A DNA stretch of 49,476 nucleotides from an uncultured Bacteroidales bacterium. Lineage in GTDB: Bacteria; Bacteroidota; Bacteroidia; Bacteroidales; Paludibacteraceae. A model generated the notes under the pieces. The model was not told the DNA's origin. It did no database searches and worked only from the letters and a program-made list of their open reading frames with translations. This document shows, piece after piece, positions 11,478 through 49,476 of this stretch (the first letter of the stretch is position 1; each line of letters begins with the position of its first letter). The translations under genes and the position numbers were made by a program. The stretch lies in contig CASFUX010000193.1 in the NCBI GenBank assembly GCA_949297975.1, forward strand, positions 1-49,476, given 5' to 3'.

Positions 11478-11572
11478 TCCTTTTGCTCAAAGGGGTTGTA
11501 CCCTTTTGCCCAAAGGAGTCGCACCCTTTTGCCCAAAGGGGTCATACCCTTTTGCCTAAGTGCCTCCCCCAC
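11478..11572. repeat. 23-nt tandem hairpin array (array C)
   Basis: TTTTGC starts recur at 11481, 11504, 11527 and 11550, exactly 23 bases apart. Each of the first three units is a small dyad of the form CCTTTT-GC(C/T)C-AAAGG. The units abut with no spacers. It resembles the architecture of the 22-nt arrays at 16.6 and 49.3 kb with a different sequence. Confidence 0.85.
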
Positions 11573-13558: not shown

Positions 13559-15610
13559 ATGAAAAAAGCAACTACCCTGTTCCTGGCGTTGACCGCCAGC
13601 CTCCTGATAGGGGCGATAGCCCAGATATACGAACCCATCCGCTGGCACGTGGAGCAAAAGGCGACCGGCGAGGGCACGGCCGACCTGTACCTGCGGGCCT
13701 CGATTGACGAAGAGTGGCACCTGTATGGCCTGCAACTGCCCGAGGGGGGGCCACTGGCCACTTCCATCGTGTTCACCGAGGTGAAGAATGCCCAACTCGT
13801 GGGCGAGGTGAAACCGCTGTCGGAACTGCATTACGAATATGATGCCAACTTCGACATGGAACTGAACTGGTACACGGGCGAGGCAGTGTTCGTACAATCC
13901 ATCGCGTTCGACCAAGCTGACGCGGTGCGCATCGAGGGGCATGTGGAATACATGGCGTGCAACGACCAGACCTGCCTGCCTCCCGCCGAAGCCCCCTTTG
14001 CCATCGGCCATGCTCCCGCCGGGGAGGCCGACCGCCCGTCCACACCGGATGCGCCCGCGCAACCGGCTGTCGCGCAAACCGCTACCCCCCTGCCCCTCGG
14101 CCCAGCGACCCTGCCCGTGACCGCCGCCCCCGCCGACGCGGCCGGAAACGGCACGCCGGACACGCCTTCGAAATACTGGACACCCGTGGTGGACGAACTG
14201 CAAGCCTTGGGCGAAAGCCGCGCGGACGATTTCTCCCTCGGCTGGATATTCCTCGTGGGAATGCTGGGCGGGTTGCTGGCCCTGGCCACCCCTTGTGTGT
14301 GGCCCATCATCCCCATGACGGTGAGTTTCTTCCTGAAACGGGCGCAAGACAAGGCGCGGGGCCGCCGCGATGCCGTGCTCTACGGCGTGGCCATCCTTAT
14401 TATATATGTAGGGCTGGGGTTGCTCATCACGCTGCTGTTCGGCGCAAGTGCGTTGAACGACCTGTCGACCAACGCCGTGTTCAACCTCTTCCTGTTCGCC
14501 CTGCTGGTGGTGTTCGCCGTGTCGTTCTTCGGCGCATTCGAAATCACCCTACCGGCCAGCTGGACCACCCGGATGGATGCCAAGGCCAGCAGCACCGCCG
14601 GGTTCGTCAGCCTGCTGTTCATGGCCTTCACGCTGGTGCTGGTATCGTTCTCGTGCACGGGTCCCATCATCGGCTTCCTGCTGGTGGAGGTGTCGGGCAG
14701 CGGCTCCATGCTCGCCCCGCTGGTGGGCATGGCGGGGTTCGCCGTGGCGCTGGCCGTGCCTTTCAGCCTGTTCGCCTTCTTCCCCACCTGGCTCAAATCG
14801 CTGCCCAAGTCGGGCGGATGGCTCAACCGGGTGAAGGTGGTGCTGGCGTTCGTCGAACTGGCATTCTCCCTCAAATTCCTCTCCGTGGCCGACCTGGCCT
14901 ATGGCTGGGGACTGCTGGACCGCGAGGTGTTCATCGTGCTGTGGGCGGTCATCTTCGCCCTGCTGGGCTTCTACCTGCTGGGCAAGCTGCGCTTCCCGCA
15001 CGACACCCCCTCGGAACACACCGGCGTAGGCAGCGCGCTGCTGGCCACCGTGTCGCTGGCGTTTGCCCTGTACCTGGTGCCGGGGCTGTGGGGCGCACCG
15101 CTCAAGGCCGTCAGCGCCTTCCTGCCACCGCTCTACACGCAAGACTTTAACCTGAACACGCAGGTGGTGGAGGCCGACTTCACCGACTTCGACGAAGCCA
15201 TGCGCCAGGCCGAACGCACCGGCAAGCCCGTCATGGTGGACTTCTCGGGCTACGGATGCGTGAACTGCCGCAAGATGGAAGCCAAGGTGTGGACCGACCC
15301 GCGCGTGATGGACATGCTGGAGCGCAACTACCTGCTCGTCACCTTGTACGTGGACGACAAGACACCGCTGCCCGCCCCCTACGAAGTGGAAGAGGGCGGC
15401 CGCATCCGCCGCATCCGCACCGTGGGCGACCAATGGAGCTACCTGCAACGCCACAAGTTCGGCTCGAACGCGCAGCCCTTCTACGTGCTGCTCGCGCCGG
15501 ACGGCCAGCCGCTCAACCGCTCCTACGCCTACGATGAAGACCCGGCTAAGTTCCTGGACTGGCTGAGGGAAGGGCTGGAGAGGATGGAGGAAGTAAGAGG
15601 TAAGAGGTAA
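13559..15610 (+). CDS. dsbD: Thiol:disulfide interchange protein DsbD
   Basis: Moves reducing equivalents from cytoplasmic thioredoxin across the inner membrane to periplasmic thiols. The 683-residue protein has a signal peptide (1-21), a DsbD-alpha-like beta domain with Cys134/Cys139 (YMACNDQTCLPP), and a Pro/Ala-rich linker. An eight-helix core follows, with ATPCVWPIIPM and SFSCTGPIIGFL, each bearing one redox cysteine. The C-terminal thioredoxin domain has SGYGCVNCRKME (CxxC). I chose ATG 13559 because the signal peptide begins there; the frame extends 50 codons upstream through the promoter region. In an organism secreting many folded proteins it may supply envelope disulfide isomerisation. 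Confidence 0.95.
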   Translation: MKKATTLFLALTASLLIGAIAQIYEPIRWHVEQKATGEGTADLYLRASIDEEWHLYGLQLPEGGPLATSIVFTEVKNAQLVGEVKPLSELHYEYDANFDMELNWYTGEAVFVQSIAFDQADAVRIEGHVEYMACNDQTCLPPAEAPFAIGHAPAGEADRPSTPDAPAQPAVAQTATPLPLGPATLPVTAAPADAAGNGTPDTPSKYWTPVVDELQALGESRADDFSLGWIFLVGMLGGLLALATPCVWPIIPMTVSFFLKRAQDKARGRRDAVLYGVAILIIYVGLGLLITLLFGASALNDLSTNAVFNLFLFALLVVFAVSFFGAFEITLPASWTTRMDAKASSTAGFVSLLFMAFTLVLVSFSCTGPIIGFLLVEVSGSGSMLAPLVGMAGFAVALAVPFSLFAFFPTWLKSLPKSGGWLNRVKVVLAFVELAFSLKFLSVADLAYGWGLLDREVFIVLWAVIFALLGFYLLGKLRFPHDTPSEHTGVGSALLATVSLAFALYLVPGLWGAPLKAVSAFLPPLYTQDFNLNTQVVEADFTDFDEAMRQAERTGKPVMVDFSGYGCVNCRKMEAKVWTDPRVMDMLERNYLLVTLYVDDKTPLPAPYEVEEGGRIRRIRTVGDQWSYLQRHKFGSNAQPFYVLLAPDGQPLNRSYAYDEDPAKFLDWLREGLERMEEVRGKR

Positions 15611-15639: not shown

Positions 15640-15948
15640 ATGAACACTACCACCAGAGATATTATCATTCCCAAACTAAAAGCATACTTCACCACCCAGC
15701 CGATCACAAAAGCCTGGTTGTTTGGTTCATTTTCAAGGGGCGAGGAAACCGATACCAGCGATATAGACATCCTGGTCGTTTTTGACCAGGATGCACACAT
15801 CGGGTTGTTCAAGTTCGCCCGCATCTATGGAGACTTGAAAGAGCTGTTAGGCAGGGAGGTGGACCTGGTAAAAGAAGGTTCCCTCAAACCGTTTGCCCGA
15901 GAAAGCACCGACCGCGATAAAATATTGATTTATGAGAGAAGCAATTAA
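15640..15948 (+). CDS. mntA: MNT-type nucleotidyltransferase antitoxin
   Basis: The 102-residue minimal nucleotidyltransferase carries the active-site signature GSFSRGEETDTSDID, i.e. GS followed by ten residues and D-x-D (Gly29, Ser30, Asp41, Asp43). In characterised MntA-HepT systems this enzyme inactivates the HEPN toxin by adding AMP units to a tyrosine. It overlaps hepT by 17 bases, so the pair is probably translationally coupled. An A/G-rich run (GTAAAAGGAGAAATAAATC) precedes the start. Key catalytic residues are present, so the gene looks intact. Confidence 0.9.
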   Translation: MNTTTRDIIIPKLKAYFTTQPITKAWLFGSFSRGEETDTSDIDILVVFDQDAHIGLFKFARIYGDLKELLGREVDLVKEGSLKPFARESTDRDKILIYERSN

Positions 15949-16285
15949 AAACCGCACCCGACTGCTCCACATGCTGGAAGGCATCAACAATATCATGGAG
16001 TTCAAAGAGGGCGTTGACTACACCGCATTTGCAGAAAACAAACTGCTCAAGTTCGGCATTTTCTACAACGTGGCCATTATCGGAGAAGCCGCCTATAAGC
16101 TGACTAAAGACTTTATCGCAACCCACCCAGACGTGCCTTGGCGGGACATCATCAACATGCGGCACATATTGGTGCATGGATATTACCAAATCGATGCCGA
16201 CATCTTATGGGAAACCATCAATCACGATCTGCCTCCATTGAAAGAAGCAATCGAAAGATACTTGCAAGAAGATGTGGAACTATAA
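15932..16285 (+). CDS. hepT: HEPN-domain RNase toxin (HepT/DUF86)
   Basis: The 117-residue alpha-helical HEPN protein has the catalytic motif R-x4-H-x-Y at Arg77, His82 and Tyr84 (MRHILVHGYY). HepT proteins are RNases, and the motif tyrosine is the residue modified by the partner MntA. The start lies within the end of mntA. The pair sits beside a decayed gene resembling a restriction-modification enzyme and repeat DNA, a common setting for such modules. A stabilisation or phage-defence role is inferred from the family, not shown here. Confidence 0.9.
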   Translation: MREAIKNRTRLLHMLEGINNIMEFKEGVDYTAFAENKLLKFGIFYNVAIIGEAAYKLTKDFIATHPDVPWRDIINMRHILVHGYYQIDADILWETINHDLPPLKEAIERYLQEDVEL

Positions 16286-16547: not shown

Positions 16548-16555
16548 AGGGATAT

Positions 16556-16870
16556 TGCATTTTCCCAGCATGACTTTTCCGGTTTCCCGGCATGATTTTT
16601 CCCTTTTCTGCTGACAAGTTTTACAGCCCACAGTTATGGGTTGTACAACTCACAGTTATGGGTTGTACGACCCACAGTTGTGGGTTATATAACCCATAAC
16701 TGTGGGCTGTAAAAGTTATGCTCACGATTGGGAAAACATCTGCCCACGTTTTGGAAAACATCTGCTCACGATTGGGAAAACTTCCCCGCACATTCCAGAC
16801 AAACTATGCGGACAAAACGGCAAACTTGCCCGCGCACAACTGACATTATGCCCGCATCTCTGCCAAAACC
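16556..16870. repeat. 22-nt repeat array with palindromic core (array A, copy 1)
   Basis: The core at 16619-16714 has exact 24-bp inverted arms (16619-16642 and 16691-16714). It is built of 22-nt units CCCACAGTTATGGG+TTGTACAA, CTCACAGTTATGGG+TTGTACGA, CCCACAGTTGTGGG+TTATATAA and a fourth unit reversed. On both sides, units of the same length read outward from the core with a shared theme (TGC..CA....TTGGGAAAA). On the right, for example, GCTCACGATTGGGAAAA and GCCCACGTTTTGGAAAA are 22 bases apart. Right-hand units become degenerate towards 16870. There are no spacers and no coding frame. Confidence 0.9.
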
Positions 16871-45731: not shown

Positions 45732-46151
45732 TCAATCGTTGAATATCGATTCCATATAAGTCTGCAAGATGATTACCGCGCTGATTTTGTCGACCAACGC
45801 TTTGTCTTGCCGTGCCTTTTTCCTCAGTCCGCCATCCAGCATGGCCTTATGGGCCAACACCGAGGTAAACCGTTCGTCCATAAAAACGATCTCTTTGTCC
45901 GGGAACGTCTGGCGCAACTTGTTCACAAAAGGCCGGATATACGTCATGGATTCCGAGTCGCTACCGTCCATCTGCTTGGGCAGCCCGACCACGATTTTAT
46001 CCACTTTCTCGCGAGCCATGTATTGTTGCAGATAAGCCAGCACATCTTTTGCATGCACGGTATCCAAGCCATTGGCCACAAGGCGCAAGGGATCGGTCAC
46101 TGCCAGCCCCACACGCTTCCGTCCATAATCGATTGCCAAAATCCGTCCCAT
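45732..46151 (-). CDS. ruvX: Holliday-junction resolvase-like protein RuvX/YqgF
   Basis: The 139-residue RNase-H-fold protein starts MGRILAIDYGRKRVGLAVTDP, with the first catalytic Asp in IDYG. It has VVGLPKQMDGSDS in the middle and FMDERFTS with the second acidic site. YqgF/RuvX proteins are implicated in processing pre-16S rRNA 5' ends. I chose ATG 46151 because the family starts at this M; the frame runs 13 codons further up into the gap after rsmD. Confidence 0.94.
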   Translation of the reverse strand: MGRILAIDYGRKRVGLAVTDPLRLVANGLDTVHAKDVLAYLQQYMAREKVDKIVVGLPKQMDGSDSESMTYIRPFVNKLRQTFPDKEIVFMDERFTSVLAHKAMLDGGLRKKARQDKALVDKISAVIILQTYMESIFND

Positions 46152-49198: not shown

Positions 49199-49476
49199 TT
49201 GCCAAATAGTTCAACTCATGAAACGAAAAAACGCCACGCACTTGTTTTTCCACATGATGAGCAGATGTTTTCCCAATCGTGAGCAGATGTTTTTCCAAAC
49301 GTGAGCACAACTTCTACAGCCCACAGTTATGGGTTATACAACTCACAGTTATGGGTTGTACGACCCACAGTTGTGGGTTATATAACCCATAACTGTGGGC
49401 TGTAAAACTCATGAACAGAAATTGGAAAACTTGTGCGCAGAAATTGGAAATATCATGCTGGCAAACAAGAAAAACC
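49199..49476. repeat. 22-nt repeat array with palindromic core (array A, copy 2; runs off the window)
   Basis: The core 49316-49407 matches 16623-16714 at 91 of 92 bases (one G-to-A change in the first TTGTACAA) in the same orientation. Outward-reading 22-nt units flank it. Left-flank units, read in reverse complement, are GCTCACG(A)TTTGGGAAAA with ACATCT, like the right flank of copy 1. Right-flank units (CTTGT-x-x-GCAGAAA, then ATCATGC-x-GG-x-AAAC) match the reverse complement of the left flank of copy 1. The array continues to the window end. Confidence 0.9.

Follow-up and report, generated by a model that had tools for sequence, protein, structure and literature searches.

Dispersed palindromic repeats in a 22-bp register in one genus of Bacteroidales: a probable protein-binding array with an interior found in both orientations

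Two copies of an element of about 228 bp in a 49,476-nucleotide stretch of a Bacteroidales genome (the window) are members of a family of palindromic repeats, scattered between genes, that is probably of a new variety and probably forms a protein-binding array. Its architecture, 22-bp register, near-fixed number of units, and largely intergenic position are established from the genome sequences, as is the fact that two relatives lack it at one matching site. Inversion of the interior of the element in evolutionary time is accepted here, and a dedicated genetic switch is unlikely. The explanation that we favor, with slightly more confidence than doubt, is that the element is a dispersed intergenic array of protein-binding sites whose interior is flipped by template switching or conversion, its orientation being a neutral by-product and not a switch.

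The element is mirror-symmetric, in the order flank units, four core units, flank units (Table 1). Read in the same direction, the cores of the two window copies (16619-16714 and 49312-49407) agree at 94 of 96 bases, the differences being counted by eye; with slightly wider slices the match is 94 of 98 direct and 84 inverted. The 48-bp interiors agree at 47 of 48 positions in direct comparison but at only 35 of 48 when one of them is inverted. The flanks are related in the opposite sense. When the left flank of copy 2 is reverse-complemented, it agrees with the right flank of copy 1 at 39 of 44 positions. The left flank of copy 1, treated likewise, agrees with the right flank of copy 2 at 35 of 44 when copy 2 is moved outward by a single 22-bp unit. 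The wrong pairings of flanks give 23 and 28 of 44, and the best of 200 shuffles gives 25 and 24, although shuffling tests are not probabilities because the copies are related. Other choices of slice give 32 and 40 for the flank matches. The core of one window copy is inverted relative to its own flanks. An earlier note on this DNA had reported the crosswise matching of both flank pairs and the same-way reading of the asymmetric core interior; all of this was reproduced, including its count of about 35 of 44 for the weaker flank pair. The repeat units occur far above chance in the window, with 8 matches to a 20-mer (0.00 expected) and 5 matches to a flank 17-mer (0.18 expected).

Table 1. Positions in the window of the parts of the two element copies.
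Feature	Position	Strand	Remark
Copy 1 left flank, made up of three degenerate units of 22 bp that mirror the right-flank type	16553-16618		
Copy 1 left 24-bp arm	16619-16642		
Copy 1 16-bp palindrome 1 (TGRGTYRTAYRACYCA)	16637-16652		
Copy 1 48-bp interior, core units 2 and 3 with linkers, same direction as copy 2	16643-16690	+	47/48 direct, 35 inverted
Copy 1 16-bp palindrome 2	16659-16674		
Copy 1 16-bp palindrome 3	16681-16696		
Copy 1 right 24-bp arm, repeating the left arm in inverted form	16691-16714		
Copy 1 right flank, three 22-bp units, GCTCACGATTGGGAAAACATC type	16715-16780		
Copy 2 left flank, three 22-bp units, matches copy 1 right flank in reverse complement	49246-49311		39/44
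Copy 2 four-unit core, interior 49336-49383, 16-bp palindromes starting at 49330, 49352, and 49374	49312-49407		
Copy 2 right flank, three 22-bp units, reverse-complement match to copy 1 left flank, one unit shifted	49408-49473		35/44

The window copies represent 2 of 40 places in the 3.05-Mb draft genome G000, where 83 overlapping matches on both strands were merged into 40 places by manual reading and all 40 were fetched. Genome G002 likewise has 40 places, partial ones included, and genome G001 has about 23, of which 19 were examined; these genomes represent two further species of the genus, that of G002 being the closest to G000. The element was not detected in G003, a fourth genome of the genus, which is 99% complete. 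G000 and G002 are only about 88-89% complete, and all three element-bearing genomes are drafts. A profile of 31 cores, used with stricter filters and with 13 candidates scored per genome, found the element in 3 of 300 genomes of the family and in 1 genus of 33. Of 393 genomes of the order, nine were matched by the profile, namely G000 and eight genomes of other families, the latter weakly (20.7-29.4 bits). Loci L215-L221 and L223 in other Bacteroidales families are tandem arrays of different sequence, with units mostly of 22 bp (also 21 and 24); they lie mostly between ORFs, the one in G601 overlapping an ORF, and they came from weak profile matches by a method that favors such periods. Plasmids and phages searched with copy 1 gave no match, and neither did viral contigs searched with an exact 23-letter pattern. 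The named records with an exact pattern match were an uncultured Bacteroidales bin (11 stretches) and an uncultured Porphyromonadaceae bin (one stretch).

When the core is re-cut at its linkers, it resolves into three 16-bp palindromes of the TGRGTYRTAYRACYCA type with 6-bp spacers between them and a half-site at each end. Four units make up the core in 78 of 88 parsed copies (33 of 38 in G000, 27 of 31 in G002, and 18 of 19 in G001), and two of the three 3-unit copies of G002 are cut by contig ends. The 31 cores, drawn from three species, form a gapless 96-column alignment with invariant columns every 22 bp, one 3-unit copy having been padded. The information in flank units 1-4 is 26.0, 21.6, 14.0, and 2.5 bits in G000 and 24.6, 22.4, 16.3, and 4.6 bits in G002. 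Because it falls to background after unit 3 in both genomes, the element is taken to end after about three flank units. The flanks in G001 are shorter, with only about two units clear (18.4, 9.8, 5.2, and 1.8 bits). Two G000 copies, L068 and L070, were left out of parsing, since an insertion sequence splits the core, and in seven parsed chains one flank unit was cut off manually. The unit counts omit nine G002 loci that lack a core chain. An arm was found in five of these: L165 starts at a contig end, L170 is cut by other sequence, and L163, L167, and L171 look core-less, with flank units joined straight to an arm.

Sequence variation within the 16-mers consists almost wholly of transitions at six positions. 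Comparison of 234 internal 16-mers with one reference gave 404 transitions and 3 transversions, and 398 of the transitions fall at the symmetric positions 3, 6, 7, 10, 11, and 14. Because the unit parser looked for YYCA...TGRR and tolerated one mismatch, part of the conservation at those eight positions comes from the parsing itself; it made no demand on the T..TA..A center. In G001 the 6-bp spacers contain 24 transversions in 432 positions as against 1 in 864 positions of the 16-mers. The spacers of G000 and G002 vary by transitions only (39 and 32, with no transversions), and the transition bias in these two genomes may therefore be mutational. In all three species, a 16-mer has two identical half-sites less often than shuffling would give (16 of 99 against 25.0, 11 of 81 against 19.3, and 4 of 54 against 10.9).

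These features suggest how the element might work. Its 22-bp units form a helically phased array, each unit spanning about two turns of DNA, and the 16-mers would be putative sites for a DNA-binding protein whose dimers lie on one face of the helix. The core would then be a multivalent binding platform for which its own orientation is immaterial. If such a platform works in either orientation, and if inversion comes about by ordinary routes, orientation would be a neutral by-product and not a switch.

The surroundings of the copies were classified by a crude ORF method, whose calls across some cores were treated as spurious. Codirectional, divergent, convergent, and undecided contexts number 18, 9, 5, and 6 in G000 (n = 38), 12, 5, 8, and 6 in G002 (n = 31), and 9, 9, 0, and 1 in G001 (n = 19). 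The motif TAnnTTTGC, which we take to be the Bacteroidetes promoter motif of the -7 type, occurs within 250 bp in the outward direction on 24 of 71, 20 of 57, and 11 of 36 sides in G000, G002, and G001, respectively, but inward on only 1, 2, and 1 sides, so the copies tend to lie upstream of promoters. Twenty proteins neighboring G000 copies were scanned; their functions are mixed, and five have no Pfam match. A regulon is thus unsupported, and the lack of an obvious one counts against the binding-array reading.

Copy 1 sits at the grpE site. The G002 alignment with the window breaks off near 15582, inside the dsbD-like gene, and picks up again at 16807, about 150 other bases filling the interval in G002; the element and the nucleotidyltransferase/HepT pair are both missing from G002 at this site. 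The element is also absent upstream of grpE in G001. The pair itself, a nucleotidyltransferase and a HepT-like ribonuclease of toxin-antitoxin type, occupies 15640-16285 of the window and adjoins copy 1. A separate 23-bp tandem repeat of 3.4 copies is found at 11479-11556.

The two interior orientations seen in the window recur in the family. Relative to the flanks, the interior reads one way in 10 copies and the other way in 16, counting the 26 of 63 scored copies whose flanks are clearly asymmetric by a threshold that we chose; the split is 5 against 14 in G000 and 5 against 2 in G002. Coupling of interior orientation to promoters or to gene direction was considered and is unsupported. With a single outward promoter motif as the frame, the two orientations number 5 and 7 in G000, 5 and 4 in G002, and 1 and 4 in G001, where one further copy is undecided; in codirectional gene frames, summed, they number 24 and 14 with one undecided. 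The skews in G000 (5 against 14) and in the codirectional frames nevertheless weaken the case for full neutrality of orientation.

Five sites could be paired between G000 and G002. At L061/L154 the interiors have the same direction (47 of 48), and the two copies are nearly identical, both flanks included. The direction is also the same at L047/L096 (42 of 48 against 34), the units are swapped at L035/L073 (39 against 37), the interior is closer when inverted at L033/L094 (44 of 48 against 32 direct), and the G000 copy has one unit fewer at L067/L095. Unrelated G000 and G002 copies match at a mean of 41.1 of 48 in their better orientation, and only L061/L154 is clearly above this background. 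Neighboring sequence aligns on both sides at L061 and L067 and on one side at L033, L035, and L047. The flank units adjoining the core at L033/L094 differ too, so an exchange with another copy is possible there. In comparisons with the more distant G001, the interior is closer inverted at L061/L145 (38 against 32) and closer direct at L131/L091 (38 against 32), and the two orientations are equal at L050/L134 (37 and 37). The two flanks of L047 each match a separate element-bearing contig of G002 (L096 and L082), which may reflect a rearrangement at the repeat.

The earlier note had explained the window pair by inversion of the interior between the arms of one copy, had suggested that this would make it an invertible element or a conversion hotspot, and had proposed to compare orientations in relatives and to set flank type against core orientation in more copies. 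The relatives give a divided answer, with two site pairs in the same direction, one inverted, one unit-swapped, and one with a unit fewer. The inversion proposal gains one site, L033/L094, which is closer inverted but not clean, and two sites keep their direction. The larger set of copies bears out that both orientations occur with respect to the flanks. The notion of a conversion hotspot fits the unit swaps and unit losses at the gene-matched G000 and G002 sites, whereas that of a dedicated invertible element, although compatible with an interior found both ways, is opposed by the absence of a recombinase domain among 39 scanned window proteins.

Inversion by ordinary routes can be pictured as follows. 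The interior is flanked by near-perfect inverted arms, and template switching between these arms during replication would invert the spacer. In yeast, template switching is reported to invert spacers between short inverted repeats (PMC8604942). Recombination or conversion among the approximately 40 copies may also insert the interior either way and would shuffle, lose, and gain units; ectopic conversion among about forty related copies is an equally ordinary route. Template switching predicts that arms should be more alike within a copy, and such an excess was not seen.

In a reading of the element as programmed to invert, the 22-bp unit is divided into an 8-bp arm, a 6-bp spacer, and an 8-bp arm, a layout resembling that of recombinase sites. 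In such a scheme the unit would be the site of a tyrosine recombinase, and the inverted outer units 1 and 4 would be exchanged, flipping the interior. The first and last units are indeed inverted in 22 of 38 G000 copies and 29 of 31 G002 copies, they differ on average at only 1.30 (G000) and 0.41 (G002) of 14 bases in 4-unit copies, and the interior is found in both orientations. However, the outer units in G001 are often not inverted, the candidate sites are only 66 bp apart, and orientation has no clear relation to promoters, nothing obvious being switched. Furthermore, a Pfam scan of the 39 window proteins, seven of which have no match, recognized no site-specific recombinase or transposase domain, although a recombinase might be encoded at a distance. 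We regard programmed inversion as highly improbable. The window does encode a RuvX-type protein (45732-46151), for which the Pfam name is Holliday junction resolvase. Another possibility, to which we give some weight while thinking it unlikely, is a non-autonomous mobile repeat of MITE or REPIN type without host function, with the internal repeats and orientation changes being debris of transposition and recombination. Dispersal to about 40 intergenic places, restriction to one genus as searched, and the empty matching site upstream of grpE in G002 and G001 all accord with it, as does a ACGTGAGTTCG-type repeat seen by eye at or beside the end of about seven copies and pointing outward in two. 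The remaining copies are, by eye, without such terminal repeats, and functionless debris would not be expected to keep an almost constant number of units or conservation with a 22-bp period. Nor was a target-site duplication shown, the one empty site being too diverged for this. The RAYT-type Y1 transposase domain PF01797 has 0 matches in G000 and 0 in G002, both about 88-89% complete, 1 in G001, and 5 in G003, in which the element was not detected.

The palindromic core might instead be selected as a transcript forming a very stable hairpin with a role in termination or RNA processing. Either strand of the core folds very stably, the mean minimum free energies being about -51 to -66 kcal/mol, and variation restricted to transitions could reflect tolerance of G-U pairs. 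Wobble polarity within copies is borderline in G001, where 0.055 of random sign draws were as strong, but is absent in G000 (0.83) and G002 (0.97). Among the parsed copies, the arms within a copy are no more complementary than the arms of different copies, which argues against selection for an RNA helix, and complementarity in units 2 and 3 and in linkers 1 and 3 tends to fall below that of shuffled ones. Convergent gene contexts are in the minority (5 of 32 decided cases in G000, 8 of 25 in G002, and 0 of 18 in G001), and an Rfam scan of the window gave 0 matches at the gathering threshold. With no arm covariation, no wobble polarity in two genomes, and a borderline value in the third, the RNA helix was dropped as the selected form; the arm and wobble results would favor protein-DNA recognition, and we consider a structured RNA or terminator improbable. 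It is scarcely credible that the apparent inversion arose from collapsed or mis-joined repeats in metagenome bins. The three genomes are drafts, and 12 of 40 G000 loci lack full 2-kb flanks owing to a contig end, but both interior directions recur in many copies and in separate assemblies, and L061 and L154 are almost identical in two species with both flanks included.

The element was not found described in the literature searched. Iteron and operator arrays are repeated protein sites at helical spacing. Unlike these, the element is dispersed at about 40 chromosomal places, is mirror-symmetric, and has only a candidate binder. Porphyromonas gingivalis, another member of the order Bacteroidales, harbors the nearest relative in kind that we found in the literature, the BrickBuilt MITE. 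BrickBuilt is dispersed, always intergenic, limited in host range, and present or absent according to strain, and its tandem unit of 23 nt is close to the 22 bp found here (PMC4596501). The same text gives BrickBuilt 1 to 22.8 direct repeats, a non-repetitive leader and tail, and IS5-type terminal repeats (PMC4596501), whereas the element has four core units as a rule, palindromic units in both orientations, and flanks that are themselves 22-bp units. The ACGTGAGTTCG-type repeats, noted by eye at or beside the ends of the element at L032, L033, L037, L043, L046, L048, and L069, resemble the MITE239/ISPg3 ends tabulated for P. gingivalis in that source (PMC4596501).

The REP/BIME repeats associated with RAYT and the REPINs are also extragenic palindromes, with mosaics of units in both orientations and inverted doublets (PMC2817692, PMC3116915). 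The element consists of extragenic palindromic units in both orientations, as do REP and BIME. A REPIN is a pair of inverted palindromes that replicates as one unit and forms a hairpin. The outer units of the element are inverted in the G000 and G002 proportions given above but often not in G001, and arm covariation is absent. Its approximately 40 copies contrast with the more than 100 usual for those repeats (PMC2817692, PMC3116915), and it differs further in its fixed 22-bp register and in the absence of a RAYT-domain match from G000 and G002, the two element-richest genomes. A RAYT-driven REP was rejected on this ground, although absence from incomplete genomes is weak evidence. REP sequences are known targets of insertion sequences (PMC1525189), and the element resembles them, in another repeat and another host, in that one type of insertion sequence lands repeatedly inside it. 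IS110-type elements above the Pfam cut-off lie inside cores in 2 of 2 cases in G000 (L068 and L070) and 1 of 1 in G002 (L123). By eye, these insertions share the same 3' junction within the 6-bp spacer, the G002 insertion being seen at that end only, and L068 carries extra sequence at the other end. The IS110-type transposase genes at L068 and L070 look broken. The G001 IS110-type element above the cut-off (L122) has no core beside it, and a second G001 match is weak.

A candidate for the binding protein is encoded next to the only place where the element was found in all three species (L061/L154/L145), where the neighboring gene (2306-2932 of L061) encodes a HU-HIG protein. The protein matches PF18291 at 85.7 bits. 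Its HU domain is assigned from the Pfam match and a PDB sequence search, and a C-terminal winged helix is predicted from the C-terminal secondary structure of a model with a mean pLDDT of 71.7 (81-94 in the last blocks). A fold search with the model gave no match at an E value of 0.001 or better. HU-HIG proteins were reportedly the subject of an analysis in 2017. The proposal that the element is the cognate site of this genus-specific protein, within a dedicated nucleoid or silencing system, is in our view doubtful. Each genome would then carry some forty platforms of four units, and HU dimers would bend every one of them. The kinks introduced by a HU dimer are spaced 9 bp apart, and this spacing would fit the pyrimidine-purine steps of the 16-mer, 1-2 with 10-11 and 6-7 with 15-16. 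Among the 300 family genomes, homologues of 62-87% identity were found besides G000 only in G001, which has two, and G002; at a threshold of 1e-10, G021 has a remote homologue (31%), and G000, G001, and G002 have remote paralogues. Since a single control gene, present in 162 of the 300 genomes, is likewise missing in G003, the co-occurrence of protein and element is weak evidence. No element was present in the examined stretch surrounding the HU-HIG paralogue of G001, and no HU-HIG gene was present at the other element loci examined. The search for HU-HIG genes beside other arrays of the 22-bp type found none in nine loci with weak profile matches.

Should the HU-HIG proposal be true, the weakly related 22-bp arrays of other families of the Bacteroidales would represent counterparts bound by different proteins. 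On the broader reading of the element as a protein-binding array, four helically phased palindromes kept per copy in three species, with spacers drifting in one of them, would constitute natural binding platforms. The family would allow passive mobile debris to be tested against a protein docking site as explanations of dispersed bacterial intergenic repeats, and its nearly ninety parsed natural copies offer a resource for following inversion and unit shuffling between short inverted arms.
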